Below, in pieces: positions 18,242 through 50,011 of a stretch of 64,000 nucleotides of DNA; the first letter of the stretch is position 1, and each line of letters starts with the position of its first letter. The translations under genes and the position numbers were made by a program. This DNA comes from Spirochaetia bacterium (GTDB lineage Bacteria > Spirochaetota > Spirochaetia > Sphaerochaetales > Sphaerochaetaceae): positions 1,908,784-1,972,783 of the forward strand of contig JAKVOU010000001.1 of the NCBI GenBank assembly GCA_022482625.1, written 5' to 3'. The notes beneath the pieces are model-generated. The model had not been told where the DNA came from. It saw nothing but the letters and a program-made list of their open reading frames with translations, and made no database searches.

Positions 18242-18250
18242 GGACGCAAC

Positions 18251-23490: not shown

Positions 23491-23504
23491 TTGAGGTTTG
23501 GAAT

Positions 23505-24182
23505 ATGAGTGACAAAATGATTGATGTTTTCTTTTTTGGCAAAAAGTATAAGGTACCGGAAAACCTGACTATTATGACAGCCTTGGAATATGCCGGTTAT
23601 CAATTGGTCCGCGGTGTTGGATGCAGGAATGGCTTCTGTGGAGCCTGTGCAACCATCTACCGTATCAAGGGAGACACAGAACTAAAGACCTGTCTTGCTT
23701 GTCAGACAAAAGTGGAAAAAGATATGTATGTGGCTACCCTGCCATTTTTCCCTTTGGTAAAGCAGCCTTATGATATTGAGAAAATCACCCCATCCCAGGC
23801 AATCATGATGCAGCTATATCCTGAGATATATAGCTGTGTCGGTTGCAATGCATGTACAAAGGCATGCCCACAGGGATTGAATGTCATGCAGTACATTGCC
23901 TATGCACAACGTGGCGAATTTGATAAATGTGCAGCAGAATCCTTTGACTGCGTCATGTGCGGCATTTGTTCTTCCCGTTGCCCTGCTGGAATTTCACATC
24001 CCCAAGTCGCTCTTCTTGCTAGAAGAATCAATGGTAAATATCTTACCCCCAAAAGCAAGGACCTTGAAAATAGGGTACAGGAAATCAAAGACGGTAAATT
24101 TGAGGATTTTATCCAAGTATTGATGAACAAACCACTTGATGAAATCAAAAAGCTGTATGAAACCAGGGATATCGAAAAGTAA
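23505..24182 (+). CDS. Fumarate reductase/succinate dehydrogenase iron-sulfur subunit-like protein (FrdB/TfrB N-terminal-like)
   Basis: ATG 23505 is preferred over TTG 23487. The 225 residues contain a plant-type 2Fe-2S domain (Cys40, Cys45, Cys48, Cys63/66: CRNGFCGAC...TCLAC) and two full 4Fe-4S motifs, CVGCNACTKACP (111-122) and CVMCGICSSRCP (149-160). Classical FrdB has a 3Fe-4S centre in the last position; here all four cysteines are present. No CCG (HdrB-like) C-terminal domain is attached, unlike the archaeal thiol:fumarate reductase TfrB; that role could be filled by the separate HdrB of this operon. Confidence 0.78.
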   Translation: MSDKMIDVFFFGKKYKVPENLTIMTALEYAGYQLVRGVGCRNGFCGACATIYRIKGDTELKTCLACQTKVEKDMYVATLPFFPLVKQPYDIEKITPSQAIMMQLYPEIYSCVGCNACTKACPQGLNVMQYIAYAQRGEFDKCAAESFDCVMCGICSSRCPAGISHPQVALLARRINGKYLTPKSKDLENRVQEIKDGKFEDFIQVLMNKPLDEIKKLYETRDIEK

Positions 24183-24192
24183 GGAGCTAAGA

Positions 24193-25797
24193 ATGTATAC
24201 CGATGAAAACATGCTTGCATCCATTGAGAAAGTGGAAGCAGCAAGACAAAATAATGCTGTCCTGGAACCAAAGAGGATGGATGCAGATGAAAAGGACACT
24301 TTGCTGCAGACCTTTCATCCGGACTACATCCAAAACCAGTTTGCAAAACTGGAAATCGGACCGAACAAAGGTGAAAAAGCTCCGCTTGAACTTGTTGACT
24401 TGCTACAGGGAAAAAGCCGTGTCAAAGAAAATCAATTCAACCTTGACAATCCTGACTATGATGTCGATGTGTTGATTATAGGCGGCGGCGGTGCCGGTAC
24501 TGCTGCAGCCATTGAGGCAATCGGTACCGGGGCAAAAGTCTTGGTAGCTACAAAGCTTAGGATGGGAGATGCCAACACAATGATGGCAGAAGGAGGCATC
24601 CAAGCTGCCGATGGACCAAACGACAGTCCTGCAATCCACTATCTGGATGCATACGGCGGCGGGCATTTTGCAGCAAAACCTGAACTTCTTTACAAGTTGG
24701 TCACGGAAGCTCCAGAAGCAATCCAATGGCTCAATGGTTTAGGCGTCGAGTTCGATAAAAGAGCAGACGGCACTATGGTCACGACTCATGGCGGTGGTAC
24801 AAGTCGCAAGCGTATGCATGCCGCAAAAGACTATTCTGGTGCTGAAATTATGCGCACACTACGTGATGAAGCCATCAATCGTGGTGTTACCATCGTCGAC
24901 TTCACTGCAGCAATAGAATTACTTCTTGATAACGAAGGCAAGGCTGCAGGAGCCGTACTCCTCAACATGGAAACAGGTGAACACCTGATTGCAAAATCTA
25001 AGACAGTCATCATTGCAACAGGAGGTGCAGGACGGTTACATTACCAAGGTTTTCCTACTTCCAACCATTACGGGGCAACAGCTGATGGCTTGATCATTGC
25101 ATATCGCGCAGGAGCAAAATTACTTTATCAGGATACACTTCAATACCATCCTACGGGCGCAGCTTTCCCTGAACAGATCTTCGGAGCTTTGGTGACAGAA
25201 AAAGTCCGGTCACTAGGAGCAAAACTTGTTAACAAAGATGGAGTAGTTTTCATGCATCCGCTGGAAACAAGAGATGTCACGGCTGCTTCCGTCATCAGAG
25301 AATGCAAAGAACGCAAAATGGGTATCGAGACCCCCAGCGGCGGTCAGGGTGTATGGCTTGATACTCCAATGATTGAACTGAAAGGTGGCGAAGGTACTAT
25401 CGAAAGACGGATTCCTGCAATGCTCAGGATGTTCAGCAAGTATGACATTGATATCAGAAAGGAACCAATCTTGGTTTATCCTACTTTGCATTACCAAAAT
25501 GGTGGCATCGATATCAATGCAGATTGTATGAGCAATATTGAGAATCTCTATGTTGCAGGAGAAGCTGTAGGTGGTATTCATGGCCGAAACCGGTTGATGG
25601 GAAATTCTCTTCTCGATACAGTAGTGTTCGGCAGGGACGCAGGTCGCAACGCTGCGCTTCATGCCAAGGATGTAAAGGTTGGCAAGCTTTCGCTTCACCA
25701 TATCACAAAATTTGAAGAAGAGCGAACCAAGGCAGGAATAACCTCCGAGACGTTAAGTCCAAAATTACTGCCTTCCTACACTCACAAGAAGAAATAG
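24193..25797 (+). CDS. Fumarate reductase flavoprotein subunit-like (FrdA/TfrA-like)
   Basis: ATG 24193 follows AAGGAG and gives 534 residues, with about 85 extra N-terminal residues before the FAD motif IIGGGGAGTAAA (about 95-106). Active-site blocks are conserved: QYHPTG (His319), ETRDVTAAS (Arg360, the proton-donor arginine position), HYQNGGID and GRNRLMGNSLLD. The position of the histidine that covalently binds FAD in E. coli FrdA (SHTVAAEGG) is ANTMMAEGG here, so Asn128 replaces it and FAD is probably non-covalent. The C-terminus is shorter than in FrdA. No membrane-anchor subunits (FrdC/D) follow, so the enzyme should be soluble. Confidence 0.82.
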   Translation: MYTDENMLASIEKVEAARQNNAVLEPKRMDADEKDTLLQTFHPDYIQNQFAKLEIGPNKGEKAPLELVDLLQGKSRVKENQFNLDNPDYDVDVLIIGGGGAGTAAAIEAIGTGAKVLVATKLRMGDANTMMAEGGIQAADGPNDSPAIHYLDAYGGGHFAAKPELLYKLVTEAPEAIQWLNGLGVEFDKRADGTMVTTHGGGTSRKRMHAAKDYSGAEIMRTLRDEAINRGVTIVDFTAAIELLLDNEGKAAGAVLLNMETGEHLIAKSKTVIIATGGAGRLHYQGFPTSNHYGATADGLIIAYRAGAKLLYQDTLQYHPTGAAFPEQIFGALVTEKVRSLGAKLVNKDGVVFMHPLETRDVTAASVIRECKERKMGIETPSGGQGVWLDTPMIELKGGEGTIERRIPAMLRMFSKYDIDIRKEPILVYPTLHYQNGGIDINADCMSNIENLYVAGEAVGGIHGRNRLMGNSLLDTVVFGRDAGRNAALHAKDVKVGKLSLHHITKFEEERTKAGITSETLSPKLLPSYTHKKK

Positions 25798-26604: not shown

Positions 26605-29600
26605 ATTTCAATACATGCTCCTCTGTGAGGAGCGACATGTTTACGACGAATTGATTGCATGCAAAACCTTATTTCAATACACGCTCCTCTGTGAGGAGCG
26701 ACCCTGATGGGTATACAACATTTGATTATCTCTTTATTTCAATACACGCTCCTCTGTGAGGAGCGACAAGGAGCAGGCGATCACGGCCTACATCTATGCA
26801 CAATTTCAATACACGCTCCTCTGTGAGGAGCGACAAAAATCATTGACGAGCAATCCTCATTGCCCGTATTTCAATATACGCTCCTCTGTGAGGAGCGACA
26901 GTAATGGCAATCATCAAATCAACGACACTGACTATTTCAATACACGCTCCTCTGTGAGGAGCGACACAAGGACTCTTGAGGATGGTACGGAAAGTACCAT
27001 TTCAATACACGCTCCTCTGTGAGGAGCGACCTTGGGGGTGTCTTCCGGAGGTTGATTAGTACAGATTTCAATACACGCTCCTCTGTGAGGAGCGACACAT
27101 CCATACGGACCGCCCTTTATGGCAACGGCAGATTTCAATACACGCTCCTCTGTGAGGAGCGACACAAGGACTCTTGAGGATGGTACGGAAAGTACCATTT
27201 CAATACACGCTCCTCTGTGAGGAGCGACCTTGGGGGTGTCTTCCGGAGGTTGATTAGTACAGATTTCAATACACGCTCCTCTGTGAGGAGCGACACATCC
27301 ATACGGACCGCCCTTTATGGCAACGGCAGATTTCAATACACGCTCCTCTGTGAGGAGCGACACAAGGACTCTTGAGGATGGTACGGAAAGTACCATTTCA
27401 ATACACGCTCCTCTGTGAGGAGCGACACAAGGACTCTTGAGGATGGTACGGAAAGTACCATTTCAATACACGCTCCTCTGTGAGGAGCGACCTTGGGGGT
27501 GTCTTCCGGAGGTTGATTAGTACAGATTTCAATACACGCTCCTCTGTGAGGAGCGACACATCCATACGGACCGCCCTTTATGGCAACGGCAGATTTCAAT
27601 ACACGCTCCTCTGTGAGGAGCGACGTTGGTCATCCAATCCAAAAAGGGGGGAATCCAATTTCAATACACGCTCCTCTGTGAGGAGCGACGCAGATAGCAA
27701 GGGTGGCATATTATCACTAAGGGATTTCAATACACGCTCCTCTGTGAGGAGCGACCATCCATACGGACCGCCCTTTATGGCAACGGCAGATTTCAATACA
27801 CGCTCCTCTGTGAGGAGCGACAGCCATGCGGAATACAATCGTAGAGGCTAAGGCTATTTCAATACACGCTCCTCTGTGAGGAGCGACCGGAACAGGGACA
27901 ATCCTCGTGCAAACCGTACGGATTTCAATACACGCTCCTCTGTGAGGAGCGACGGCATCGGCCATGCCCTTGAGATAGGATCTCAAAAATTTCAATACAC
28001 GCTCCTCTGTGAGGAGCGACGTGGCAGACAAAAGACCACACCTTGGTCACCAAGATTTCAATACACGCTCCTCTGTGAGGAGCGACCTCTGAAGTACCGC
28101 CCTCTACCGTCATGTTCCATATTTCAATACACGCTCCTCTGTGAGGAGCGACGGAATTGCAAAGTCAATTGCAGCCGTGGGAACAGATTTCAATACACGC
28201 TCCTCTGTGAGGAGCGACGAGGTAACTCAATCGGAGATGTTATCTATTATGCATTTCAATACACGCTCCTCTGTGAGGAGCGACATGCTCAGGATGTCAT
28301 AAATAAGGCATTCCTGAATTTCAATACACGCTCCTCTGTGAGGAGCGACCCGAACAGGTTTTCCAAAAAGTTGTAGAAAATTATTTCAATACACGCTCCT
28401 CTGTGAGGAGCGACAGTTCATCAAGCCCGATGGAGCCAAGATGTTTTTATTTCAATACACGCTCCTCTGTGAGGAGCGACTCGTGCACCATATGCACAAT
28501 CTGACACAGGTCTTATTTCAATACACGCTCCTCTGTGAGGAGCGACGTGGTTGACACGTTGGCCCGGTACATGTCAGGTGATATTTCAATACACGCTCCT
28601 CTGTGAGGAGCGACGACAGTACCATACGTAGTTTCTTTTCCAACTTGATTTCAATACACGCTCCTCTGTGAGGAGCGACAGATGACAGATGGATAATGGT
28701 ACTATGGGACTTTATTTCAATACACGCTCCTCTGTGAGGAGCGACACCAACAGCAATACGGTACAAGTAGTGTCAGCAATTTCAATACACGCTCCTCTGT
28801 GAGGAGCGACATGGAGTGGTGGTCAAGATAGGGCAACAGCAAGATTTCAATACACGCTCCTCTGTGAGGAGCGACGTAGTGGGGATCTCAAACCTGCATG
28901 CAACATTCAAATTTCAATACACGCTCCTCTGTGAGGAGCGACTCCGGGGGCATTCCGGGTTCCTTTTTGTTTTGGATTATTTCAATACACGCTCCTCTGT
29001 GAGGAGCGACCGGCAACTGGCCCAACCAGATCATCGTACGGATCGGATTTCAATACACGCTCCTCTGTGAGGAGCGACACGCAATACCGAGTTCGTATTT
29101 TTCACAGATAAAATTTCAATACACGCTCCTCTGTGAGGAGCGACTTTTCATTTTGGATTCAAAAAAATAAAGCAAATCAATTTCAATACACGCTCCTCTG
29201 TGAGGAGCGACGACGACGAGATACCGTTTTGACTGACCGTGATAATTTCAATACACGCTCCTCTGTGAGGAGCGACGCTGATGTGCACGTACAAAAGGAC
29301 ATTATGCAACAATTTCAATACACGCTCCTCTGTGAGGAGCGACGGCAAGCGACGGAGCAGTGATTGAGTTAGACGGAATTTCAATACACGCTCCTCTGTG
29401 AGGAGCGACCTGCTGGTCCTTGACCGAGCGGTTGACGGCGAGTATTTCAATACACGCTCCTCTGTGAGGAGCGACTATGGAATTTTCACGACAACCAACG
29501 TCGTTTCAATTTCAATACACGCTCCTCTGTGAGGAGCGACCTGTTTTCAGACGTTGAGTACGCAAGCACGGATGAATTTCAATACACGCTCCTCTGTGAG

Positions 29601-32600
29601 GAGCGACATGTGACCAAATAGGCACCGCAGACATTAAAGATTTCAATACACGCTCCTCTGTGAGGAGCGACTACATTGGTAGGTTGAGTACCTGGACCTG
29701 CGACATTTCAATACACGCTCCTCTGTGAGGAGCGACCATAAACGGAATTGTTGATAGGCAAATTGTGGGATTTCAATACACGCTCCTCTGTGAGGAGCGA
29801 CGCATGGTGTCATCATCGGAGATTCCGCGGAGCCATTTCAATACACGCTCCTCTGTGAGGAGCGACTCTGCTCGCCATCAATCGTCACATGGGACTCCGA
29901 TTTCAATACACGCTCCTCTGTGAGGAGCGACAAGAAAACCATGACAGCCGAAGAACTCGAGAAGATTTCAATACACGCTCCTCTGTGAGGAGCGACCAGC
30001 GAGAGGGTTTTGCCCAACGGTATTTTTCCATTTCAATACACGCTCCTCTGTGAGGAGCGACTCGTTGATAACCGTCTCAGGCGTCGAGTGCTGAATTTCA
30101 ATACACGCTCCTCTGTGAGGAGCGACGGTGAACAACTCAGATGGCTCGGCAACTGACGAATTTCAATACACGCTCCTCTGTGAGGAGCGACTGTGATTTA
30201 TCAGGGACTTGATAAGGTTTCTCGTATTTCAATACACGCTCCTCTGTGAGGAGCGACGTCACCTTTGCATGCACACGCTTTTTGTACAAATATTTCAATA
30301 CACGCTCCTCTGTGAGGAGCGACTGCAATGTACAGGGGCTATCATGCTATTCATTTTATTTCAATACACGCTCCTCTGTGAGGAGCGACTGTCGTCACCT
30401 AGCGCAAACGTCCAAAGGTTTGATTTCAATACACGCTCCTCTGTGAGGAGCGACGCGACACACCCTGTCGAGGTGGCGGAGCTGGTAGAGATTTCAATAC
30501 ACGCTCCTCTGTGAGGAGCGACTGCTTGCATAGAGATTAATGTCGTGCGCTGGATATTTCAATACACGCTCCTCTGTGAGGAGCGACACATGTCGAGGAG
30601 CACAGGCTTCCAGTGCAAAGGATTTCAATACACGCTCCTCTGTGAGGAGCGACGCTGATGAGGGACTGGAAGAAAACTGATTTTTTATTTCAATACACGC
30701 TCCTCTGTGAGGAGCGACGCCGTGTTCCCGTCTTGTTTGACAACTCCCATGGATTTCAATACACGCTCCTCTGTGAGGAGCGACTTGTCGGGGACACTTC
30801 ACCGTTCCAGGCGGTGCTATTTCAATACACGCTCCTCTGTGAGGAGCGACCGGGATTCACCGCCTCCGCAGACGCAACATCCATTTCAATACACGCTCCT
30901 CTGTGAGGAGCGACTGCCAGCATCTATGCGCTGTACGATAACAACCCTATTTCAATACACGCTCCTCTGTGAGGAGCGACATGATGCGGCAAAGGTGGTC
31001 AAGCGATATGGACGTATTTCAATACACGCTCCTCTGTGAGGAGCGACTTGCTATTGCGGCGGCAGTGTCCACGGTTGCCGAATTTCAATACACGCTCCTC
31101 TGTGAGGAGCGACGGGTGTCAGACATCGGCAGCTTCAAAAACTACTCAATTTCAATACACGCTCCTCTGTGAGGAGCGACATCACCAAGCGCTGATTCCA
31201 GGCTAGATATCTCAATTTCAATACACGCTCCTCTGTGAGGAGCGACTTCATTGTTTGTTTTGCTTTTCATCAGCAATGGATTTCAATACACGCTCCTCTG
31301 TGAGGAGCGACTGCCCCACCGATAGGTGACGTATGATGCCCCCTCTATTTCAATACACGCTCCTCTGTGAGGAGCGACGACATGGACACACAACGACGAC
31401 ATCTACATCAGGATTTCAATACACGCTCCTCTGTGAGGAGCGACAGCTGAAAATTGCCATGGTTGGGTTGATAGCATTATTTCAATACACGCTCCTCTGT
31501 GAGGAGCGACAGGACGCCTACAAAGAGAAATGCCAAAGTCTGGCATTTCAATACACGCTCCTCTGTGAGGAGCGACGCACCAGCAGTTTGCAAAGCAGAA
31601 AAACAGCGAGATTTCAATACACGCTCCTCTGTGAGGAGCGACCGCACAGTGTTACTGCATCACAGCTTGGGCTGGATTTCAATACACGCTCCTCTGTGAG
31701 GAGCGACACTGAGGGCAACATGTCATATGGCGGATATCGTGAATTTCAATACACGCTCCTCTGTGAGGAGCGACTGTTGACTGGGGGTATAATTGATGGC
31801 AAGGAGCATTTCAATACACGCTCCTCTGTGAGGAGCGACTAATCGGTAACAACCGCCTTCGGTATAAATCTTTATTTCAATACACGCTCCTCTGTGAGGA
31901 GCGACAAGATATCAAGGCTGTCTATGTTTCTTTGTCCAAGATTTCAATACACGCTCCTCTGTGAGGAGCGACTCGACACGACCGTCACCACGACTGCAAA
32001 AATCATATTTCAATACACGCTCCTCTGTGAGGAGCGACTCGCCAAGCGCTGATTCCAGGCTAGATATCTCAATTTCAATACACGCTCCTCTGTGAGGAGC
32101 GACGAACATGAACGCAGGTGCTTTCGCCAACACCATTATTTCAATACACGCTCCTCTGTGAGGAGCGACATGTACATTTTTGTTGTTTGCCTTATTTTTT
32201 TATTTCAATACACGCTCCTCTGTGAGGAGCGACGCGCAAAAACCTGGATTTCCTTAGCCGAAGATGACATTTCAATACACGCTCCTCTGTGAGGAGCGAC
32301 TGAGGGCAACATGTCATATGGCGGATATCGTGAATTTCAATACACGCTCCTCTGTGAGGAGCGACGGATATTGTGGACTCGGTGCCTGACGGCGTGCCTA
32401 TTTCAATACACGCTCCTCTGTGAGGAGCGACAGGAATTGATGCTATCATTAAACAGAGGTTAATATATTTCAATACACGCTCCTCTGTGAGGAGCGACTG
32501 AATATGTCTGATTTTATATTTGAGCTTGCAAATTTCAATACACGCTCCTCTGTGAGGAGCGACAAGGTACAAAGACAGAGGTCGTCAAGCAGATAGATTT

Positions 32601-35600
32601 CAATACACGCTCCTCTGTGAGGAGCGACTGCCAATCGGTTTCCTGTGCCAGGAACCGAATCAATTTCAATACACGCTCCTCTGTGAGGAGCGACTATCTC
32701 AGTCTCTATACGGTCCTTCTGTACATCAATTTCAATACACGCTCCTCTGTGAGGAGCGACCAGTATGACTGTCAAAATTTCTTGGATTCCTCTGATTTCA
32801 ATACACGCTCCTCTGTGAGGAGCGACTAAATGGATGCTGAAAACCTTTTTGGTTTTTCAGATTTCAATACACGCTCCTCTGTGAGGAGCGACCGGAGTCC
32901 CGAAAACCTTATCCCTCAGAAATGCAATTTCAATACACGCTCCTCTGTGAGGAGCGACGCGACTACAGGCAGCACCTGCAAGGCCGCAGAGATTTCAATA
33001 CACGCTCCTCTGTGAGGAGCGACATAATACCTGCCATGGAAAACATCATAAAGATGGATTTCAATACACGCTCCTCTGTGAGGAGCGACAAGTGCATCCA
33101 ATGCCTCCTGCACTGTCGTTACTATTTCAATACACGCTCCTCTGTGAGGAGCGACTCCTTCCTTGTTCGTGATCCCTTCGATTTTTATATTTCAATACAC
33201 GCTCCTCTGTGAGGAGCGACCTTTGGGACTTAATGCATGCAAAAAGAACAGCTTATTTCAATACACGCTCCTCTGTGAGGAGCGACCTTGTGAGCAGCCC
33301 TTTTTTCAAGCACATACTTATTTCAATACACGCTCCTCTGTGAGGAGCGACTCCTTGCCATCATCTTCCCTCTTAAGGTCATTCAATTTCAATACACGCT
33401 CCTCTGTGAGGAGCGACTCACGTCCGCTATATTGCCTTGTACGTTGTTCAAATTTCAATACACGCTCCTCTGTGAGGAGCGACTATGATCGATAATTCCA
33501 GGAAATAATCTAATCCTATTTCAATACACGCTCCTCTGTGAGGAGCGACGCCGTATTTCTTCAAAAGCAGATAGTTGCTTCCATTTCAATACACGCTCCT
33601 CTGTGAGGAGCGACATGGCAAGCTGCTTCATGCGGTCAAGCGTGGCAATATTTCAATACACGCTCCTCTGTGAGGAGCGACGTATTCCTATGAACTGCAT
33701 GACATCACCGACATTATTTCAATACACGCTCCTCTGTGAGGAGCGACCAATGCAGACATTATCTTCGCAACCGTGGCATTTATTTCAATACACGCTCCTC
33801 TGTGAGGAGCGACTGTCACCGCTTGGTACCTTTTCACCTTCGCTCATATTTCAATACACGCTCCTCTGTGAGGAGCGACAGGATAGCAAACGGTACATCT
33901 TCGCTGACTGATATTTCAATACACGCTCCTCTGTGAGGAGCGACTGATGCTTGCAAATGGACTGATCTTCATCCTGTTGATTTCAATACACGCTCCTCTG
34001 TGAGGAGCGACAGGAAGCAGAGACATTACCTTTTGGCCATAGTTTATTTCAATACACGCTCCTCTGTGAGGAGCGACACTGCCCGAACCCCGAGTTAGCG
34101 GTACCATTGTTATTTCAATACACGCTCCTCTGTGAGGAGCGACACGATACGTGCAAGCCTGTCGGTTATGGAATCTATTTCAATACACGCTCCTCTGTGA
34201 GGAGCGACTTCCTCCTAAAATTAACTTGATGGAGCATGTGGATTTCAATACACGCTCCTCTGTGAGGAGCGACCTGAGCGGTATGGAATCGTCGAAAGGC
34301 ATCAGAAATTTCAATACACGCTCCTCTGTGAGGAGCGACGCTGATCCCTTACGGGTCTGTTTTGCTATCTCAATTTCAATACACGCTCCTCTGTGAGGAG
34401 CGACTCAAGATCTTTTTTGTTTGTTTCTTTTGAATCTATTTCAATACACGCTCCTCTGTGAGGAGCGACCATTGTTATCCATAAAAGTACCTCCTGGATG
34501 CAGATTTCAATACACGCTCCTCTGTGAGGAGCGACGAGCATTCCCCTACATCGATGATATTCACATTCCCATTTCAATACACGCTCCTCTGTGAGGAGCG
34601 ACAATTATCAAATGTAACATTGAGGTAACGTTTTGATTTCAATACACGCTCCTCTGTGAGGAGCGACTCGTAGCCCACTTCAGGAGCAATCTTATCTACG
34701 ATTTCAATACACGCTCCTCTGTGAGGAGCGACGTTCGGCGGCAATGACCTGCTTGACAGCTTTGAGATTTCAATACACGCTCCTCTGTGAGGAGCGACAT
34801 GCATCGGCCTGGTCAGCATCAAAGAGGTAGGTTATTTCAATACACGCTCCTCTGTGAGGAGCGACACACGTTCGGAGGTATACTGTCGAGTCTTAAGTCT
34901 ATTTCAATACACGCTCCTCTGTGAGGAGCGACGATTGACCGCACACCATATGTGCGCCCTATACTTATTTCAATACACGCTCCTCTGTGAGGAGCGACAT
35001 GATTGCACTTGCAGGTATCCATTTCCTTTCATTATTTCAATACACGCTCCTCTGTGAGGAGCGACGGAACAGAAGGCCGATGAAATAAGAGGATTACGAT
35101 TTCAATACACGCTCCTCTGTGAGGAGCGACTTGGCAAAAGGGACTGATAAAATGATGCGCACGATTTCAATACACGCTCCTCTGTGAGGAGCGACAGTGT
35201 CCATATAATCCCCCTACCCTATCGGTAGGGATTTCAATACACGCTCCTCTGTGAGGAGCGACCTCGACTACATAGGCATAGTCAGGCCAGGAACCATTTC
35301 AATACACGCTCCTCTGTGAGGAGCGACCGCTAGGATAGCTTGCTGTACGGAGACAGCCAGAATTTCAATACACGCTCCTCTGTGAGGAGCGACCGGAGTT
35401 ACATTCGAGGTTGTCAGAGGTGACAGGATTTCAATACACGCTCCTCTGTGAGGAGCGACATTGTTATCCATAAAAGTACCTCCTGGATGCAGATTTCAAT
35501 ACACGCTCCTCTGTGAGGAGCGACTCTATTGCCCTCTTGTCCATCTTGTAACATCATATTTCAATACACGCTCCTCTGTGAGGAGCGACTACTCAAGCAA

Positions 35601-38224
35601 GAGTATGTATATTATGGGGTATTATTTCAATACACGCTCCTCTGTGAGGAGCGACGAATGTGTATTCCTTGAACGTAAGATATTATGGAAATTTCAATAC
35701 ACGCTCCTCTGTGAGGAGCGACCGCTAGGATAGCTTGCTGTACGGAGACAGTCAGAATTTCAATACACGCTCCTCTGTGAGGAGCGACGGCGTGACTTTG
35801 CATATTTTATACGCTACTTCTGATTTCAATACACGCTCCTCTGTGAGGAGCGACCGATGGTTTAGTAGCTCATAATAAAACTATTGAGATTTCAATACAC
35901 GCTCCTCTGTGAGGAGCGACATAAAATTGATATACTTGATAAAGTTATAAAAATTTCAATACACGCTCCTCTGTGAGGAGCGACCGATGTAAGCCATGGA
36001 GAGTATATCCCATGCCAATATTTCAATACACGCTCCTCTGTGAGGAGCGACAAGACTGATTACAGGAGCCATTCATATGTCATATTTCAATACACGCTCC
36101 TCTGTGAGGAGCGACTGGTTTGGACCCGTATCCGCTCTCACGATACTAGGATTTCAATACACGCTCCTCTGTGAGGAGCGACTGTCAAGCACTTGACCAA
36201 GGGTAATCAACATTTCAATACACGCTCCTCTGTGAGGAGCGACCCTACAGGGTACAATTTACTTCAAGGGATACTTGGATTTCAATACACGCTCCTCTGT
36301 GAGGAGCGACGCGGAAGTGGCGGGAGGCGTTGACCCCACTGATATTTCAATACACGCTCCTCTGTGAGGAGCGACTGCTTCAACCGCAACATCCGCTCCG
36401 TTCGCAACGATTTCAATACACGCTCCTCTGTGAGGAGCGACTGGCTTGCCATTCTTTCTCGGTATAATGCTTATATTTCAATACACGCTCCTCTGTGAGG
36501 AGCGACTGCTTTGGGACCAGTTCAGATATAGGCATAATGGATTTCAATACACGCTCCTCTGTGAGGAGCGACCTTAGTCACTTGATCAATATTATCACCT
36601 ATCACAATTTCAATACACGCTCCTCTGTGAGGAGCGACAATCTTAACCTTCTTTATTATCTTTGAAGGGTTATTTCAATACACGCTCCTCTGTGAGGAGC
36701 GACTTTACTTGAGCCTTTACATAATCATCATTACGGATTTCAATACACGCTCCTCTGTGAGGAGCGACCTGACGCTGTATATTATCCGTGTCCTGTTTTA
36801 TAATTTCAATACACGCTCCTCTGTGAGGAGCGACTGCCAATCGGTTTCCTGTGCCAGGAACCGAATCAATTTCAATACACGCTCCTCTGTGAGGAGCGAC
36901 TGATGGTAGCGAAGTGCCTTATGGAATCCTTCAGATTTCAATACACGCTCCTCTGTGAGGAGCGACGACAACAATTGCAGGATAGCATATGCAGATAATT
37001 ATTTCAATACACGCTCCTCTGTGAGGAGCGACCCCGGCGCAGATAGTTGCAGGTGATGAATATGATATTTCAATACACGCTCCTCTGTGAGGAGCGACTT
37101 GATGATATTTCAAATGCTTTGGATGGGTTCTTGATTTCAATACACGCTCCTCTGTGAGGAGCGACATTGAATATTCAAGATTATCTACGCCTCTTACAGA
37201 TTTCAATACACGCTCCTCTGTGAGGAGCGACCGTGCCGTCCATTGCCTGAAGTGACAGAGATATCATTTCAATACACGCTCCTCTGTGAGGAGCGACTGC
37301 ATCGGCCTGGTCAGCATCAAAGAGGTAGGTTATTTCAATACACGCTCCTCTGTGAGGAGCGACCTGATTGACCGCACACCATATGTGCGCCCTATACTTA
37401 TTTCAATACACGCTCCTCTGTGAGGAGCGACCTATGTGACCATGGCTACCAGCCTTGTGGCGGATATTTCAATACACGCTCCTCTGTGAGGAGCGACATC
37501 CGTGCATATATTCCCATTATGCCTATATCTATTTCAATACACGCTCCTCTGTGAGGAGCGACGAAGCTGACTTCACGCTCTGCCGCAACTGTATCATTTC
37601 AATACACGCTCCTCTGTGAGGAGCGACTGATGCTTGCAAATGGACTGATCTTCATCCTGTTGATTTCAATACACGCTCCTCTGTGAGGAGCGACGATTTG
37701 CGGTAAGGTAATCACCCAATACAAATTGAATTTCAATACACGCTCCTCTGTGAGGAGCGACACATACATATATTTTATCAAATCTTCCCATCTTGTATTT
37801 CAATACACGCTCCTCTGTGAGGAGCGACTGAAATGATACTACTTTATCATCCCAATAGATTGATTTCAATACACGCTCCTCTGTGAGGAGCGACCTTCTT
37901 CTTGAGCCCCAATTTTCCAAGCAGTCCTATTTCAATACACGCTCCTCTGTGAGGAGCGACGTCATCTATCCTATACTGACAATAATGGTATCAAATTTCA
38001 ATACACGCTCCTCTGTGAGGAGCGACATCCTTGATTGCAGATGATATGATACCCATATCTATTTCAATACACGCTCCTCTGTGAGGAGCGACGATTGGTC
38101 AATACCTACTCCATTGATTGATGACAATTTCAATACACGCTCCTCTGTGAGGAGCGACTGTCACCGCTTGGTACCTTTTCACCTTCGCTCATATTTCAAT
38201 ACACGCTCCTCTGTGAGGAGCGAC
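26605..38224 (-). CRISPR. Type I-C CRISPR array, 177 repeats / 176 spacers by manual count
   Basis: A 32-bp repeat that on the plus strand starts ATTTCAATACACG and ends GAGGAGCGAC recurs every 64-68 bp. In crRNA orientation (minus strand) it starts GTCGCTCCTC and ends ATTGAAAT, the type I-C consensus with an inner palindrome CGCTCCTC/GAGGAGCG. Spacers are 32-36 bp, with one of 29 bp (36183-36211). The leader and cas genes lie at the high-coordinate end, so the newest spacer is 38159-38192 and the oldest is near 26637. Repeats are identical except the terminal one (26605, C to T) and the fifth (26868, C to T). Reading frames across the array are artefacts of the 66-bp period. Confidence 0.98.
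26966..27592 (-). repeat. Tandem amplification of a three-spacer block inside the CRISPR array
   Basis: Spacers A (26966-26998), B (27031-27064) and C (27097-27131) recur in the order ABC-ABC-A-ABC up to 27592, with identical sequences and repeats. A near-copy of C, one base shorter at its left end, recurs at 27756-27789. The block lies near the leader-distal (old) end, so it arose by recombination between repeats, not by ordinary acquisition at the leader. Confidence 0.95.
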
Positions 38225-38370
38225 AGCTAATAATTGCTTGAATCAATGATTTAATCAAGAGTAAAAATTTATACTTACTTTTTCCATACGTTTATGTTGG
38301 ATTTACAACAAATCCATAGAAAAAATCAGTGTGAATGCTCTAGTTTTTTTATGATTACCTACTATCCGCA
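38225..38370 (-). promoter_or_regulatory. CRISPR leader
   Basis: The 146-bp A+T-rich segment lies between the cas2 stop codon and the first repeat. On the minus strand it contains an inverted repeat GGATTTgttgtAAATCC (about 38304-38320) that could help integration, and a possible promoter TTGATT-17-AATTAT (38253-38258 and 38230-38235), whose -10 ends 5 bases before the first repeat. Position, composition and adjacency to the newest spacer identify the leader; the promoter is a visual guess. Confidence 0.75.
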
Positions 38371-38661
38371 CTAGACAAGAATGACACCCTCAGGGTCATA
38401 TGCAACCTTAGTACCGTAATGTTCAATTTTTGTGGCATAGTTTTTCCCTAAATGATAAATCCTAAGTGAATCTTCTTTCTCATTTATCAATTTCAACAAC
38501 CCACATCTAAAAGCAAGCAATTGGGCATAATCTACATTACATTCAAAAACTGAATTCTGGACTCTTTGTCCATAATCCTGGCAATACTTTGCAACCTTTT
38601 GTAATCGTCTTCTACCTTTGGCTGTTGTTGTCATAATATCATAAGTAATCAATATCATCAT
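38371..38661 (-). CDS. cas2: CRISPR-associated endoribonuclease/integration protein Cas2
   Basis: ATG 38661 begins MMILITYDIMTTTAKGRRRL, the normal Cas2 start with the conserved Asp after the first beta strand; the frame continues upstream only as a shadow of cas1. The 96 residues include NSVFECNVD, the second conserved strand. Cas2 dimers bridge Cas1 dimers to capture and insert spacers. The gene starts 4 bases after the cas1 stop codon and is the last cas gene before the leader. Confidence 0.93.
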   Translation of the reverse strand: MMILITYDIMTTTAKGRRRLQKVAKYCQDYGQRVQNSVFECNVDYAQLLAFRCGLLKLINEKEDSLRIYHLGKNYATKIEHYGTKVAYDPEGVILV

Positions 38662-38665
38662 ACTC

Positions 38666-39691
38666 TTACTTCCACAGAAACACGGGATAGCCGTCAATAT
38701 CACTACGAACATATCTTGCAAAGAGCAAGGCTTGTACATATGGTACCAAACCCCATGGGATTTTTTCTTGTATAAAGGGATGTAAAATTTCCTTTTTCTT
38801 TCGTTCTTGCCAATTCGATAGAAATTTTTTTCGGCCTGTTTCACTCAGTAAGGTTACACCATTTTCCTCATGGGAAAAATCAGCATGATCAATGTAATGT
38901 TTATTTACAAGCGTAAGAACAAAACGATCAACAAACGGTGATCGTAATTCTTCAACAAGATCAAGTGCCAAGGCATATCTGCCGGAACGCAGAACATGAT
39001 AGTATCCCACAAACGGATCCACCCCTGCAGCGACAAGACCACTTTTGTAATCCAAACCAAGAAGTGTATATCCAAAAGATAAAAGAGCATTGATTTCATC
39101 CTGCGGAGGCCGACGATTTCTACCCGAAAAATGAAATGAATCATCCAATATCATCTGATCAAATACACCGAAATATTGACGAGCACAGTCTCCTTCAATT
39201 CCCAAAAGGCTTTCTTTATCTACACATTGCTGAACAACTGCAGTATTCTTTTTTAAATTTGTAGAAACAAGTCTGAGTGCTTCAACATCAACTTGAGCCT
39301 CATGATCCCTTATATAGCGTTCCAAGGTCCAGCGACTGTTATGAAGTTTTGCGGCTACAGTATTTCTTGCAAGTATCAAACATCGGTCATCATCATCAGA
39401 CAAACGATATTGTGCATGCCGAAGCAGGACATTTCCACTTTCGCCTCCAAAAGCTGAATAAAGAAATTTCCCAGAAGGTGAGAAAAAACTGACAGATATA
39501 CCTGCCTGGCAACATTTACCAATAAGTGCAGGAGTCGCTCCCGCATAAGAAAAACAAAAAATTGACTCAAAAATATGCAATGGATATTTACCGACAACAG
39601 TGCCATCCTGTTCAACGACAATATCTTCACCTTCAAGTTTCAGATAACTCGAGTCAGTCAGGACAAACAACGTATTCAACAGTTTCTTCAT
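38666..39691 (-). CDS. cas1: CRISPR integrase Cas1 (type I-C)
   Basis: The 341-residue protein has the metal-binding triad in context: Glu166 in GIEGDCARQYF, His232 in GYYHVLRSGR and the acidic cluster DLVEELR (about 244-250). Length and motifs are normal for Cas1c. It inserts new spacers at the leader together with Cas2, and Cas4 supplies PAM-side processing. It overlaps cas4 by 4 bases (ATGA). Confidence 0.95.
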   Translation of the reverse strand: MKKLLNTLFVLTDSSYLKLEGEDIVVEQDGTVVGKYPLHIFESIFCFSYAGATPALIGKCCQAGISVSFFSPSGKFLYSAFGGESGNVLLRHAQYRLSDDDDRCLILARNTVAAKLHNSRWTLERYIRDHEAQVDVEALRLVSTNLKKNTAVVQQCVDKESLLGIEGDCARQYFGVFDQMILDDSFHFSGRNRRPPQDEINALLSFGYTLLGLDYKSGLVAAGVDPFVGYYHVLRSGRYALALDLVEELRSPFVDRFVLTLVNKHYIDHADFSHEENGVTLLSETGRKKFLSNWQERKKKEILHPFIQEKIPWGLVPYVQALLFARYVRSDIDGYPVFLWK

Positions 39692-40353
39692 GAAAGCCCA
39701 TCCTCAGACAATTCTTTTTGCAAGTAAACTTTGACCTTCTTTTTTGCAAAGGAAGGTAGACAATAATCATATAGAGAACAGGCAGAACAAGATTTTGTCT
39801 GCGGAGATCTTACCGTTTCCCCCTTTGTGTACATGGCATGCATTTCCTCAAAACATAGTTCCACACGTTCTCTGAAACAAGCAACTTTGATTTCCTCTCT
39901 TTTCCTTGTCTGTCCATAATACAAATAACATATCGGTACCTGACAAGAAAACATTTCTTCCAGGCAAAGTGCTTGGGCAACAACCTGATACCTGTCAGCA
40001 TCATTTATTTTTTGTCTGCCACGCTTATACTCGACAGGAACAACTTGCCAACTCCCTTCATACCCAGGAAGTGCCACACCATTCTTTACAGTCGTACGAT
40101 GAAATTCCACGACATCACATTTGCCAGAAATCCCCAAACTCGTTGAAGCAATATCCAGATCCCGGATAGTCAAAACATCACCACGCAATTCATGAACGGA
40201 CTTATCATGAGCCCGTTCATGGAATAACATGCCACTTGTTGTCAGATAATTTTCTGTCCACAGTTTTTCAATATGGATCAAACACCATTGCCGTTTGCAA
40301 AACAAATAGTGCTGGATCCCTGATAACTGCAAGAAATCATCTTCACTGTACAT
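39688..40353 (-). CDS. cas4: Cas4 nuclease (PAM-dependent spacer processing)
   Basis: ATG 40353 overlaps the cas7 stop as TAATG, follows AGGAAAC and begins MYSEDDFLQLSGIQHYLFCK, the standard I-C Cas4 start; 221 residues. The RecB-like nuclease core is visible (GKCDVVEF, VPVEYKRGR, YQVVAQALCLEE), with an N-terminal FCKRQW cysteine and a C-terminal cluster (SCSACSLYDYC), together ligating a 4Fe-4S cluster. Cas4 fixes the PAM end of new spacers, which fits the spacer-pair pattern in this array. Confidence 0.93.
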   Translation of the reverse strand: MYSEDDFLQLSGIQHYLFCKRQWCLIHIEKLWTENYLTTSGMLFHERAHDKSVHELRGDVLTIRDLDIASTSLGISGKCDVVEFHRTTVKNGVALPGYEGSWQVVPVEYKRGRQKINDADRYQVVAQALCLEEMFSCQVPICYLYYGQTRKREEIKVACFRERVELCFEEMHAMYTKGETVRSPQTKSCSACSLYDYCLPSFAKKKVKVYLQKELSEDGLS

Positions 40354-41222
40354 TAAAGTTTCCTGATGCAATCAACTCCATCAGGAAGAGCATCTGTATT
40401 GACGGACACTTCATAATCCTGATAAGAACGAGGAGCAACGACATCAGCTTTCTTTTGGACCTTGATCCTGTCAAAAAGCTCGTAGGAAGGCGCACAGCCC
40501 AATTCACTTGCATGCTTGAATACAATCAGCTTTCGACAAGCCATCTTTCCCCTGGCCGCTGAATGGTCATTTTCAAACATATTTATAATTGAGTCCCACA
40601 AAAGTTCAAGATCTGCTTCTGAAAACCCCGTATATTTCCTTGCAAGATTTGCAGAAACGTAACCTTCTGCACGATACAGGGCATAAGGAATAATGTACTT
40701 TTTCCCCATCTCGGTTTTCTTTTTTTCAGCATCTTTTGCAGTAGTAATAGCTATCCTGGTTATTGTAATTTCCTGAGGAATCACAGGATCAATGCTTCTG
40801 GCAAAAGTCAATTGTACAGGTCCCCGAATCTGGCCACAGTTGAGATTTTGCTTGACAAAAGTCGTCATCACAGCACCAAAAGTCCTGATATCATAGAAAT
40901 TGCTGCACATGAAATCTCGAGCAACCGTATCCTTGTCCTTATCAGCAATAGCATTGTCTTTGATATACTCCAATGCCCGTGCATCGCTATCGTTCAACGG
41001 TGTCCCTTGATTGATATAAATCTGATATCCCTTTTCACCTTCTTTTTTTGTCTCAACATAATTTCGTATCTTTCTCTTCAAGCAAACATCAGTCACCAAA
41101 CCAAGGCCTGTTTCCGGATCTACCCTAGGCATATTGCCAGAATCAGGATCTCCATTCGGATTACCATTTTCGACATCAAACAATATCACAAAATCATACC
41201 TGTTCTTGATTACTTCACTCAT
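40353..41222 (-). CDS. cas7: Cascade backbone protein Cas7 (Csd2, type I-C)
   Basis: The 289-residue protein starts MSEVIKNRYDFVILFDVENG and carries GNPNGDPDSGNMPRVDPETG, typical of Csd2, followed by DVCLKRKIRNYVE. Several copies coat the crRNA spacer in the Cascade complex. It overlaps cas8c by 4 bases and cas4 by one base, so the effector and adaptation genes form one operon. Confidence 0.95.
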   Translation of the reverse strand: MSEVIKNRYDFVILFDVENGNPNGDPDSGNMPRVDPETGLGLVTDVCLKRKIRNYVETKKEGEKGYQIYINQGTPLNDSDARALEYIKDNAIADKDKDTVARDFMCSNFYDIRTFGAVMTTFVKQNLNCGQIRGPVQLTFARSIDPVIPQEITITRIAITTAKDAEKKKTEMGKKYIIPYALYRAEGYVSANLARKYTGFSEADLELLWDSIINMFENDHSAARGKMACRKLIVFKHASELGCAPSYELFDRIKVQKKADVVAPRSYQDYEVSVNTDALPDGVDCIRKL

Positions 41223-43045
41223 ACTTCCTTCTCCTCTTCCTCAGTATTCTTTTTCTCAAAACGTTTTTGAGTCTGATGATAATATCCCAAGACAAACATA
41301 CCTTGGTCCGTAAGGGTCAACCGTGTTGGAAATGCATCGATATTTGCCAAAATTTCTTGTAAGGACCGATTAAAAAAGATTCTTTGCCGATCATCCAATT
41401 TCTTGAGATGGGCATTGCTTAATTTCATAAGCAAAGGAAAGATAACCGCTGGGGTTGCACAAGCCCCATTGAAATAACGGTCCTTGATCGTCGCCTTGAT
41501 TCCGGGATTTGCCGATTCTTGGATTTGTTCCAAAACAGAAAATACACGGCCAAGACAGTAAGGCACATTTTTGCTTTCAGTATTCAATGACACAGATAAT
41601 TCCTCCTTGGATATTTGATTTGATCTATTTCTCAATAAAAATCCTTTGATAATTGCCGCTTGGTCAGGCGTTACCTTATTTCTCCCCGTGTTTGCCCTTA
41701 CCCGAAGCATAATCTGTTCAAACAGAGCCTCAGGATACGTCCCTCCGGTAAGGATTGCAGACAACAGGCTACTGGATAAAACCGAAGGCGCAGTATCCTT
41801 TGAACCAGGACGTACGGTTTCCCTAAGCAAAAAATACAAGGGAACATACTGCCATGTCTGATATGTAGGTCTGACAATCTCCATCCGTCGGTAATGGGCA
41901 TAGAGAGCTTCCAGCAAAGCACCGAAGGTATTCTTGTAATACAATCGGACAGAAATCCTTGCATTGTTCGGTACAAGACACATAATATGGAAATTCGTAT
42001 GCAGATCTATATCCTGAGAAACCGGATTACCTTCTGCAATTTTTGTCATGACGTCCTGCAGCAATTCACCTTCATCCGTCTGATCATCCAATGCAGCCTT
42101 GAAAATATCCTCACAGATATTTTTCTTGCTTGTCGATTCTGACCAAAACACATACGCAGCATCGCCTTTCTGCATATGATATTTATCCTGTGTCAGAAAA
42201 TAGTTGAGCATCGTCGTATAGGCAAAGGACGCATATTCACTGACAGGGGCATTCAGACCTTGGTCATTCACATGACCATAGGACTCAAAGGAAAGTGAAT
42301 TGAATGCAACCAAAGAAGCACCGGAAGACTGTGCTCCCTTGATTCCTTTTATCTTTCCATGCAGTCTTGCAACAGGGGCTACGTTACCGGTTACCAGACA
42401 AAGCTTTTTTTCTTCCGAGGCATGTGCCTGTGTATAGTCATCACACAACCTGCAGATTTCCGGATTGTCCAAGACAGGTTTTCCATCAACCCAAAAGACA
42501 AGGTTATAAGTCATCTGGTCCTTACCGAGTTGTTCCAACAGATATTCAGGAACCTCACCAGGATGCCAACTGGCAAAAAAAGCCAGTATTGCTTTTGCTT
42601 CAGGACTTGATGAAGATTTCAGAAGTTTTTCATGCAACTCTTTTGACGCTTGGAAGCAAAGCAAGGTCCTTGCCTTATCTTTCGCAATCTGTCCCTGAAT
42701 TTTTTCAAGGTCCTGCTGTGAACTATCAGTTGCCATAGCTTTTTCATGGTCAGCTTCCTCTTTGCTTACATCACATAATCCAAGAAGATACTTTGCATTA
42801 TGGCAAAGCGGAAATGCATGTACACCTGACGCAACAGCCGTATGTACCGGAACTTCCATCTGCCGAGGTGCTTCATAGGTCTTTTTCCCTCTGGTGACCT
42901 GGTCAAACAAAGGAACAATCCCCTGAAGCTGCCCCGTCAATGACAAAGACAAGGCTCCTGCAACTTTTTCTTTCGACCATCCGAACCTAGGCAACATTCC
43001 ATCAGGAAGCATTCTCTCATATTGTCCTACAAGTGCTTTTATCAT
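41219..43045 (-). CDS. cas8c: Cascade large subunit Cas8c (Csd1)
   Basis: The 608-residue protein matches the Csd1 pattern: the N-terminus MIKALVGQYERM, WSKEKVAGALSLSLTGQL, FVASW-like FFASWHPGEVPEY, FWVDGKPVLDNPEICRLCDD and the terminal LGYYHQTQKRFE. Cas8c recognises the PAM and recruits Cas3. In I-C systems an internal start inside cas8c yields a separate small subunit Cas11; a candidate internal Met was not confirmed here. Confidence 0.93.
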   Translation of the reverse strand: MIKALVGQYERMLPDGMLPRFGWSKEKVAGALSLSLTGQLQGIVPLFDQVTRGKKTYEAPRQMEVPVHTAVASGVHAFPLCHNAKYLLGLCDVSKEEADHEKAMATDSSQQDLEKIQGQIAKDKARTLLCFQASKELHEKLLKSSSSPEAKAILAFFASWHPGEVPEYLLEQLGKDQMTYNLVFWVDGKPVLDNPEICRLCDDYTQAHASEEKKLCLVTGNVAPVARLHGKIKGIKGAQSSGASLVAFNSLSFESYGHVNDQGLNAPVSEYASFAYTTMLNYFLTQDKYHMQKGDAAYVFWSESTSKKNICEDIFKAALDDQTDEGELLQDVMTKIAEGNPVSQDIDLHTNFHIMCLVPNNARISVRLYYKNTFGALLEALYAHYRRMEIVRPTYQTWQYVPLYFLLRETVRPGSKDTAPSVLSSSLLSAILTGGTYPEALFEQIMLRVRANTGRNKVTPDQAAIIKGFLLRNRSNQISKEELSVSLNTESKNVPYCLGRVFSVLEQIQESANPGIKATIKDRYFNGACATPAVIFPLLMKLSNAHLKKLDDRQRIFFNRSLQEILANIDAFPTRLTLTDQGMFVLGYYHQTQKRFEKKNTEEEEKEV

Positions 43046-43695
43046 CTGAGCACCTCACAATCCCGGACATCCAAGACGCCGTCCTTGAGCACAGCATTGA
43101 AAAAACAAGGAGAAATATCATTCGGATCGGAGAAATCCATATCATACAGCATCAATCCCAACTGACGGGTCTGATGTTCAAGGGGTGCATATGTTTCCGG
43201 CGGTTCTCCGAAACAAGCACTGAATTCACGGCATCCCAAATATGGTTGATAATAACATTGCCCTTTTCTTATCCGACGGCTGACGATATTGTAGATTTTC
43301 TCAGGCGTATCGTCTTTACCGCAATCCTTGCCCAATTCAAAATGAGCCTCAATGACATAACGGACATCCTGCAATAACGTCGAGGACCTTTGGGCTATAT
43401 CATTTCCCGTATAGAGAGCAAGTACCTTGTCAGTCCTGTCCATAGCAGATATGACGTTCTTGGCAGAAATCTTGCTCTTGACTTCATTTCGTTTTATCGT
43501 TGTGAATTTGATAGGCTTTCTGACAACTATTCTATCTATGATCCACTCAACCCCCGGATGCCAATAAATGGCTTTGAGTATTCCCTTTGCTGCTGAAGGA
43601 GTCATCACCTCATAGGAAAATCGTTCAACTTTCAGTTCGGGCCGACTAAACAAAGCATAGTCACCCCAAACTTCTACTTTTACTCCATATCCCAT
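43042..43695 (-). CDS. cas5: Cas5c, crRNA-processing Cascade subunit (type I-C)
   Basis: The 217-residue RAMP protein starts MGYGVKVEVWGDYALFSRPE and has the SYEVMTPSAAKGILKAIYWH block typical of Cas5c/Cas5d. No cas6 gene is present, as expected, because in type I-C Cas5c cuts the pre-crRNA in the repeat stem. Tyr44 and His118 (in EAHF) fall where the processing residues of characterised Cas5d proteins lie; the lysine next to that histidine appears replaced by Ala. It overlaps cas8c by 4 bases. Confidence 0.92.
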   Translation of the reverse strand: MGYGVKVEVWGDYALFSRPELKVERFSYEVMTPSAAKGILKAIYWHPGVEWIIDRIVVRKPIKFTTIKRNEVKSKISAKNVISAMDRTDKVLALYTGNDIAQRSSTLLQDVRYVIEAHFELGKDCGKDDTPEKIYNIVSRRIRKGQCYYQPYLGCREFSACFGEPPETYAPLEHQTRQLGLMLYDMDFSDPNDISPCFFNAVLKDGVLDVRDCEVLR

Positions 43696-43704
43696 CGTTA
43701 CCTC

Positions 43705-45876
43705 CTAACAATCAAAAAATGCATTTCCTTGATTTCCTATTTCAAGTCCCGTATCCTGTGAATATCTTGAGGGATCTTCAAGGATACAAAGGTTATCGCC
43801 CAGCAACATGACCGCATGCTCTTTCTGAAGTTCTTCAAGTTGCCAATGATGGACATTTACACTGTATCTCTGTAATTTTCGCAACTCTGAACGTGCATAC
43901 CAGCCACTTCGGATATCTTCAATTATAAGTCTGGCAGTAGCATCAAAAGGAATGAATACAGGCGTACCATTGTCATCAATAAGGGAAAAGGCTTCTGCAA
44001 TCTTCTCAAAGGGCATGGCACTGGGTGAACTGCTCAGTAATTTCATGATTCCTTTTGCATCAAAGTTTTCTTCCCCACGGGCAGCATAGAGCCGCGTATA
44101 ATACTGAGAAACCAATTCAGGATTGTTGAAATCACATCCATAGTTTGCCAAGATCATCTTGGTAATGGCAGCCTGTTGCCTGATTTGCCTGGGTATCGAC
44201 CCGGATTCTTTTTCATCAGCTTCGAAAATACTGACGATGCTCTTGCCGGAAGCCCGTTTTCCCTCCCTGTTGCATCTCCCTGCCGATTGTACGATGCTAT
44301 CGACTCCTGTAAGTTCTCTGAACACACGAGGAAAATCAATATCTACACCGGCTTCAATCAGTGATGTCGATATGACGATGCAAGAAACTCCAGCTGAAAG
44401 GCACTTACGGATTTCATCAAGTCTCATCGAACGATGGACTGCACACATATTCGTAGTAAGATAAAAGCATTTGCTGTTTGGATAATTCTTTCTTGCCAGC
44501 TCAAACAGATGCTTTGCATGTTTCTTTGAGTTAACGATGCACAGGACTTGTGTTTCTGAAACAAATCGGGAAACAAGCTGCACATCGGTCAATTGCCCCT
44601 CATCATTATATGTTACGCGTCGCAAGGTCTGGAATATCCTGGTGCTATCTCCGATCACTTGAGTAATCGGTATGGAAAATTTTTGTAAAAAATGTGAAAA
44701 GGGTGGCTGTGTTGCACTGCAGAAAAGGACACTGCATGAATAATTCTTGACTAATTCAGCAACTGCATACATACAAGGAACAAGATAAGTTGTCGGAAGC
44801 ATCTGGACTTCATCAAAGATAATCACACTGTCCACAATATTATGAAGCTTCCTGGATTTGGAAACTTTATTTGTAAACAATGAATCAAAAAACTGTACGT
44901 TAGTTGTCACGACAATCGGCATATCCCAATTTTCAGAAGCCAGTTGCAAGAATGAAACTTCATCACCATCGGTTTGATAATCTACATTGCAGTGATGTTC
45001 TAAGACGACATCTTCACCGAACAGATTTCGAAATACCTGCGCATTCTGTTCTATGATTGACGTAAACGGAATTACATAGATAATCCGTCTTTTTTTTGTT
45101 GCCTGAAGATGGGCAAGGGCAAAATTCATTGATGCCAATGTCTTGCCAGTCCCCGTAGGGACATAGAGAGAATAAATACCGCCTTCTCCTTTTTCTCCCT
45201 GTTTCCTACATTGCTCAGCTATGCCAGTCCGTAGCCGGTTCAATTCATCTTTACCTTGAGAGAAAGAACGATAACAAGCTTCGAGCTTTCGGCTACATAT
45301 GGAAAAATCATAATCATCCATACTTCGTCGGTTACAATCCGGTTGCATGAATTCTTCGGTAGAAAGAAAATCAGCATCAACCAGACAGGAAAAAAGCATA
45401 CGGACAACCATTGCAAACGCCGGAGAAACAAAGGATGTACACAAAGGAGAAATAGAAGGATTATGAATCGGTTGGTCACCTGGTTTTGGAGAGTAATCAC
45501 TTGAAAGCAAAGGCAGGCACTCTTTCTTCATCCTTCCAGACAAGGTTGATGATCCGGCGACATCAGCTTTTGTCCCACCATTCAAAAGTCCGGAATGATG
45601 ACAGGCAATACAATAGGCAGGAATCAAACTATCTCCTGTATTTTCACAGACAGCTTGTGCGCCAGCTGTTGAATGATCTACCTTCTCTCCATCTTCAAGC
45701 AAACGATGCTGAAAACCTGCGGTATTCTTTCCAAGGTCATGGAATCTACCGATATAGGCTCCCCACTCCCTTGCTCCGAAATAATCAGCAAAGGAAGCAC
45801 ATCGTGATGCAACAGAATACAAATGTTCACCTAGTTGTTCCAGCTTTCCGTCATCACGTCTGTGCGCAAATACCAT
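43705..45876 (-). CDS. cas3: CRISPR helicase-nuclease Cas3 (with HD domain)
   Basis: The 723-residue protein has the N-terminal HD nuclease (HDLGK, His46-Asp47; His68; HH at 93-94) and an SF2 helicase with Walker A PTGTGKT (240-246) and Walker B/DEAD-like DEVQ (355-358). Motifs SATQPP and QSAGRCNREG are also visible. It unwinds and degrades DNA after recruitment by Cascade. It is the first cas gene, with a promoter at 45904-45932 and a TAAGGA site. Confidence 0.95.
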   Translation of the reverse strand: MVFAHRRDDGKLEQLGEHLYSVASRCASFADYFGAREWGAYIGRFHDLGKNTAGFQHRLLEDGEKVDHSTAGAQAVCENTGDSLIPAYCIACHHSGLLNGGTKADVAGSSTLSGRMKKECLPLLSSDYSPKPGDQPIHNPSISPLCTSFVSPAFAMVVRMLFSCLVDADFLSTEEFMQPDCNRRSMDDYDFSICSRKLEACYRSFSQGKDELNRLRTGIAEQCRKQGEKGEGGIYSLYVPTGTGKTLASMNFALAHLQATKKRRIIYVIPFTSIIEQNAQVFRNLFGEDVVLEHHCNVDYQTDGDEVSFLQLASENWDMPIVVTTNVQFFDSLFTNKVSKSRKLHNIVDSVIIFDEVQMLPTTYLVPCMYAVAELVKNYSCSVLFCSATQPPFSHFLQKFSIPITQVIGDSTRIFQTLRRVTYNDEGQLTDVQLVSRFVSETQVLCIVNSKKHAKHLFELARKNYPNSKCFYLTTNMCAVHRSMRLDEIRKCLSAGVSCIVISTSLIEAGVDIDFPRVFRELTGVDSIVQSAGRCNREGKRASGKSIVSIFEADEKESGSIPRQIRQQAAITKMILANYGCDFNNPELVSQYYTRLYAARGEENFDAKGIMKLLSSSPSAMPFEKIAEAFSLIDDNGTPVFIPFDATARLIIEDIRSGWYARSELRKLQRYSVNVHHWQLEELQKEHAVMLLGDNLCILEDPSRYSQDTGLEIGNQGNAFFDC

Positions 45877-47199: not shown

Positions 47200-47214
47200 C
47201 GTTTCTTCTCCTCA

Positions 47215-48903: not shown

Positions 48904-48914
48904 ATGTCAACCTA

Positions 48915-48950
48915 GAAAAAAATCGGTGGTGAGACATCCCCACCACCACA
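48915..48950 (-). terminator. Intra-operon terminator/attenuator after the binding-protein gene
   Basis: On the minus strand GGTGGTG pairs with CACCACC around a nine-base loop and is followed by GATTTTTTT. It lies between the binding-protein stop (48968) and the permease start (48903), so it should lower expression of the membrane parts relative to the binding protein. Confidence 0.7.
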
Positions 48951-48967
48951 TAGAATCTGCAGCCCTA

Positions 48968-49993: not shown

Positions 49994-50011
49994 CTTTTCC
50001 TCCAACGAGTG

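Follow-up and report, generated by a model that had tools for sequence, protein, structure and literature searches.

The window analyzed here is a 64,000-nucleotide stretch of a Spirochaetia bacterium genome (assembly GCA_022482625.1, contig JAKVOU010000001.1, positions 1,908,784 to 1,972,783). It carries a long array of clustered regularly interspaced short palindromic repeats (CRISPR) in which several spacers recur in nearly identical form. The array is of type I-C, lies at 26605 to 38224 on the minus strand, and has 177 repeats of 32 nucleotides (nt) and 176 spacers. The repeats are identical in 175 of 177 cases, and both variants lie at the left, leader-distal end. The 3′ end of the repeat in the CRISPR RNA (crRNA) sense is ATTGAAAT, matching I-C repeats. 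Because this sense is the minus strand, the right end of each spacer in window coordinates is the side of the protospacer-adjacent motif (PAM). The left spacers are the oldest and the right ones the newest, because the variant repeats are at the left and the cas genes and probable leader are at the right. No second array with the identical repeat was found in the host genome. Spacer 146 (36183 to 36211) is an outlier at 29 nt, compared with 32 to 36 nt for spacers.

A cas3-cas5-cas8c-cas7-cas4-cas1-cas2 operon (38371 to 45876, minus strand) adjoins the array. It consists of cas3 with its helicase and HD domains (43705 to 45876; TIGR01587 and TIGR01596), cas5c (43042 to 43695; TIGR01876, above cut-off), cas8c or csd1 (41219 to 43045; TIGR01863, above cut-off), cas7 or csd2 (40353 to 41222; TIGR02589, above cut-off), cas4 (39688 to 40371; TIGR00372, 101.8 bits, above cut-off), a type I-C cas1 (38666 to 39691; TIGR03640, 415 bits, above cut-off, with a Cas_Cas1 match), and cas2 (38371 to 38844; TIGR01573, E value 3e-19), whose open reading frame has an over-long start. 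The segment between cas2 and the newest repeat (38225 to 38370, minus strand) is, from its position, the probable leader. Judged from sequence, the array and the operon apparently form a complete type I-C system.

Spacer sites that recur in the array

We extracted all 176 spacers and compared them all-against-all on both strands. There were 24 near-identical same-strand pairwise matches, and five shuffled arrays gave none. The offset at the PAM side was 0 in 24 of 24 matches, and the offset at the distal end was 0 to 2 nt. The original prediction had named pairs with identical right ends and left ends shifted by one or two bases, and every pair was present where it had been placed. Six of them have this shift, with a PAM-side offset of 0 throughout. 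The comparison extended the distal-only pattern to the whole array.

Among the oldest spacers, three run A-B-C-A-B-C-A-A-B-C (26966 to 27592), with block copies of C (spacer 8) at 27295 and 27558. This run is an ordinary repeat-mediated block duplication, unlike the scattered pairs. Its copies were left out of the recapture counts, as were block duplications in two other arrays (L090 and L105). With the block set aside, ten sites are represented more than once: six with distal ends differing by 1 to 2 nt (one of these also with a single-nucleotide polymorphism [SNP]), one with a SNP only, and three identical. Two of the ten sites therefore carry one SNP each.

All ten sites are on the minus strand. 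The newer copy is 1 nt shorter at the distal end in spacers 70 (31181 to 31214) and 83 (32039 to 32071), which also differ by a SNP at position 31, in spacers 120 (34470 to 34503) and 135 (35460 to 35492), and in spacers 125 (34799 to 34833) and 163 (37298 to 37331). It is 2 nt shorter in spacers 78 (31708 to 31742) and 87 (32301 to 32333), and 2 nt longer in spacers 127 (34933 to 34966) and 164 (37364 to 37399). Spacer 8 (27097 to 27131) has a separate copy, spacer 18 (27756 to 27789), with a distal end 1 nt shorter. Spacers 133 (35328 to 35361) and 139 (35723 to 35756) have equal ends and differ by a SNP at PAM-side position 5, in the seed, which could reflect an escape variant. Both single-base differences had been predicted. 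Three exact, nonadjacent pairs were additional to that prediction: spacers 92 (32629 to 32662) and 156 (36835 to 36868), spacers 110 (33814 to 33847) and 176 (38159 to 38192), the latter being the newest spacer, and spacers 112 (33945 to 33979) and 168 (37628 to 37662). All six shifted pairs differ in the distal direction (two-sided sign test, 1/32 by hand arithmetic). Taken alone, this is modest evidence of direction; it is strengthened by the wider set of arrays.

Such copies could also arise by duplication within the array, through recombination between repeats and then small insertions or deletions at the spacer-repeat junction. Block duplication is evident at 26966 to 27592, and three pairs are exactly identical; taken singly, these same-length pairs are indistinguishable from duplications. 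The two extra bases in 31708/32301 equal the last two of the repeat (AC), and the extra base in 34470/35460 equals its last base. Slippage is therefore possible for two of the six shifted pairs. However, the extra bases in 31181, 34799, 37364, and 27097 are unlike the repeat, and duplication would need junction changes on one side only, with every repeat left perfect. The pairs are also scattered and not collinear; spacer 110, for example, returns as 176 but spacer 112 as 168. This order speaks against block duplication. In spacer 164, the two extra distal bases match neither the older copy (spacer 127) nor the repeat; therefore, the copy at 37364 was derived from outside the array. Lengths differ at 6 of the 10 recaptured sites, and 6.7 (67% of pairs) are expected under independent draws from the length distribution of the array. 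Copies that differ by their ends or by SNPs and are non-collinear, which we took as the mark of recapture, are thus present, and we regard duplication followed by junction changes as unlikely.

Other arrays of the phylum

Of the 393 genomes of the phylum, 47 had a type I-C Cas1, and 15 further loci came from other genomes. The regions fetched gave 45 I-C loci with arrays, window included, and 1888 spacers. At the 27 sites with sequence variants in these loci, there were 21 extra distal ends versus 5 extra PAM ends (two-sided sign test, 0.0025; 0.04 with the window excluded; hand arithmetic). The five PAM-end differences, some with SNPs near the end, are all outside the window, in L086, L097, L104, and L105 (two). 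The PAM end is therefore precise, not absolute. SNP pairs are informative because duplication alone cannot create SNPs. Of 15 such pairs counted in the window and the other I-C arrays, 12 kept the PAM end and 6 kept the distal end. SNP pairs occur in about ten arrays with the same pattern, a further point against duplication.

Related phages sharing a conserved short site might give equal PAM ends by conservation rather than by precise cutting. Two window pairs do carry SNPs, hence their sources varied, and many pairs in other I-C arrays have 1 to 5 mismatches. Conservation accounts for such SNPs but not for a fixed PAM end together with a floating distal end, and PAM-end offsets as common as distal offsets were not seen. 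As the cause of the equal ends, a conserved site is very unlikely; it is compatible with independent capture rather than opposed to it.

Type I-E systems typically lack Cas4. The I-E arrays of this phylum contained 12 duplicate pairs, all with matching ends, and their within-array standard deviation of spacer length was 0.15, versus 0.94 in I-C. Repeated L122 rows in this comparison were an artefact, as the array finder had called one array twice. The contrast marks the loose distal end as an I-C feature. It is a comparison and not a knock-out, and it does not by itself identify Cas4 as the fixer of the PAM end.

Two arrays of relatives are worth recording. One I-C array (L105:11342-13836) has large block duplications and also one site captured in three forms with a common PAM end. 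In another (L090:2914 and 3584), a single site is spanned end to end by two spacers, one on each strand (3 mismatches), and one of them may possibly be an oppositely inserted spacer.

PAM and protospacers

Spacers 151 (36507 to 36540, minus strand) and 166 (37498 to 37530) share a 17-nt overlap in opposite orientations. Each one's upstream flank is shown by this overlap, so both PAMs can be read inside the array. Both are TTC; by hand arithmetic, the probability of reading TTC twice by chance is about (1/64)². PAM-side position 1 of the spacers is poor in G (9% versus 23% background; p = 4e-6), and the last distal base has no bias (p = 0.8). PAM-side position 6 is also G-poor (11% versus 23%; p = 5e-4, uncorrected), with no clear sign of this in the other I-C arrays.

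The original prediction expected protospacers with a TTC-type PAM. The motif was borne out by spacers 151 and 166, but the external searches found no protospacers. The whole array compared with phages by blastn, and its leader-proximal half (32401 to 38224) compared with plasmids, yielded unrelated or CRISPR-repeat matches and nothing else. Nothing convincing was found in the own genome, 100 relatives, or 139 family genomes. Eight scans of IMG/VR with PAM-side 19- to 20-mers gave three isolated exact matches and no true protospacer. These three were treated as chance, since none extends past the 19 to 20 nt queried; one of them (L019, spacer 125/163) has an adjoining TTC and was not taken as a protospacer. 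Spacer 59 (30455 to 30490) contains GAGGTGGCGGAGCTGGTAGAG, which we take to resemble the start of a transfer RNA (tRNA) gene. It has no match outside the array in the host genome within 3 mismatches, and its target may be the tRNA gene of an invader.

Probable independent capture and the choice of site

Taken together, distal-only shifts, lengths like those of independent draws, internal TTC PAMs, the other I-C arrays, the lack of end differences in I-E arrays, and the outside bases of 34933/37364 support the original proposal of independent acquisition at one PAM. We conclude that the near-identical spacers are very probably repeated independent captures at one PAM, with the PAM end fixed and the distal end loose. 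In this scenario, a recurrent invader would have had the same protospacers captured separately, at different times. Cas4-Cas1-Cas2 would have cut at a TTC PAM each time and so left the same PAM-side base; TTC is presumed for all spacers except 151 and 166. The distal end would have been trimmed to about 33 to 36 nt without a fixed stop, as the lengths show, and the one-SNP pairs would trace to versions of the invader that differed slightly. Cas4 would set the PAM end here, and a phage origin would fit the spacers, with phage variants behind the SNP pairs. Because no external protospacer turned up, we only infer these phage variants and the role of Cas4.

Several observations weigh against this conclusion. 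Two of the shifted pairs could be slippage products and the three exact pairs could be duplications, as described above, and five sites outside the window differ at the PAM end. The PAM was seen for spacers 151 and 166 only, and the searches of phages, plasmids (leader-proximal half), own, relative, and family genomes, and IMG/VR returned no external protospacer. Finally, the data reject an even sampling of TTC sites. Site preference must therefore be added to independent capture.

The rejection comes from a simulation with even use of TTC, which gave 1.2 neighboring captures per recapture at a 15-nt overlap. The window has 1 neighbor for 10 recaptures, versus 12 neighbors simulated, and the probability of at least 10 of 11 overlapping captures being exact-site is 0.002. 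All I-C arrays together have 29 distinct same-site pairs versus 8 neighbors, where about 26 to 38 neighbors are expected (20-nt overlap). Exact-site recapture is thus several-fold commoner than capture at neighboring TTC sites. Lost divergent overlaps may contribute to the neighbor shortage. Strong preference for certain sites is the most economical interpretation. We tentatively raise the possibility, which we hold to be somewhat doubtful, that in type I-C as a whole a strong preference at the level of the site, acting in addition to the PAM, determines which TTC is captured. If this is true, long arrays could reveal site preference without experiments, and uneven site use, if upheld, would be a testable property of spacer choice.

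Recurrence at exact sites without neighboring sites would also be explained if spacers were retaken from the array itself, or from the array of another replicon, rather than from an invader. However, the triplet adjoining the PAM-side end in the array is AAT, from the repeat, and not TTC. The newer copy at 37364 has two bases that neither the older copy nor the repeat contains, and the host genome holds only one array with this repeat. We therefore reject self-capture as extremely improbable.

Repeated independent capture of this kind fits known Cas4-guided spacer capture, and the array is a natural record rather than a new system. Lee and colleagues found that the I-C Cas4-Cas1-Cas2 complex cuts exactly upstream of the PAM (GAA/TTC), and suggested that it processes the PAM end only, with the distal end left to other activity (PMC6519985). 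That Bacillus halodurans system is like the present one in its cas4-cas1-cas2 set, TTC (GAA) PAM, exact PAM-end cut, and a distal end not set by Cas4. Unlike that in vitro work, the asymmetry here is read from natural recaptures. In Legionella pneumophila, Rao and colleagues described I-C spacers acquired independently against a single protospacer, and pairs of older and newer spacers against overlapping sites, with seed or PAM changes, were read as escape and then natural priming (PMC5071653). Those arrays, which target LME-1, share with ours the independent same-protospacer spacers and the GAA/TTC PAM. There the target is known. Our ten recaptured sites, by contrast, come from a single array and have measured end offsets. 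Bifidobacterium lactis arrays also have repeated spacers within one array, some a few nucleotides apart, without an end-offset analysis in the portion of that report consulted (PMC12915315). The phenomenon is therefore already known from I-C PAM-end processing and Legionella recapture, and this array adds a clear example, resolved at the ends. In the literature searched, we found no previous study that explicitly analyzed end offsets among repeated spacers, which is not proof of absence.

The biochemistry left open what determines the distal end in I-C capture (PMC6519985). When a site is recaptured several times in a long array, both of its ends are recorded each time, and such natural recaptures show how precisely each end is set. 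It is not safe to assume that repeated spacers in these arrays are duplications, which matters where arrays are read as infection histories.

Left of the array (17050 to 25797) is a cluster of iron-sulphur, nicotinamide adenine dinucleotide-binding, and flavin adenine dinucleotide-binding oxidoreductase genes that resemble a heterodisulfide-reductase-type electron-transfer complex. Upstream of cas3 (46114 to 50005) are ATP-binding cassette transporter genes resembling those for 2-aminoethylphosphonate uptake, with scores under the curated cut-offs.
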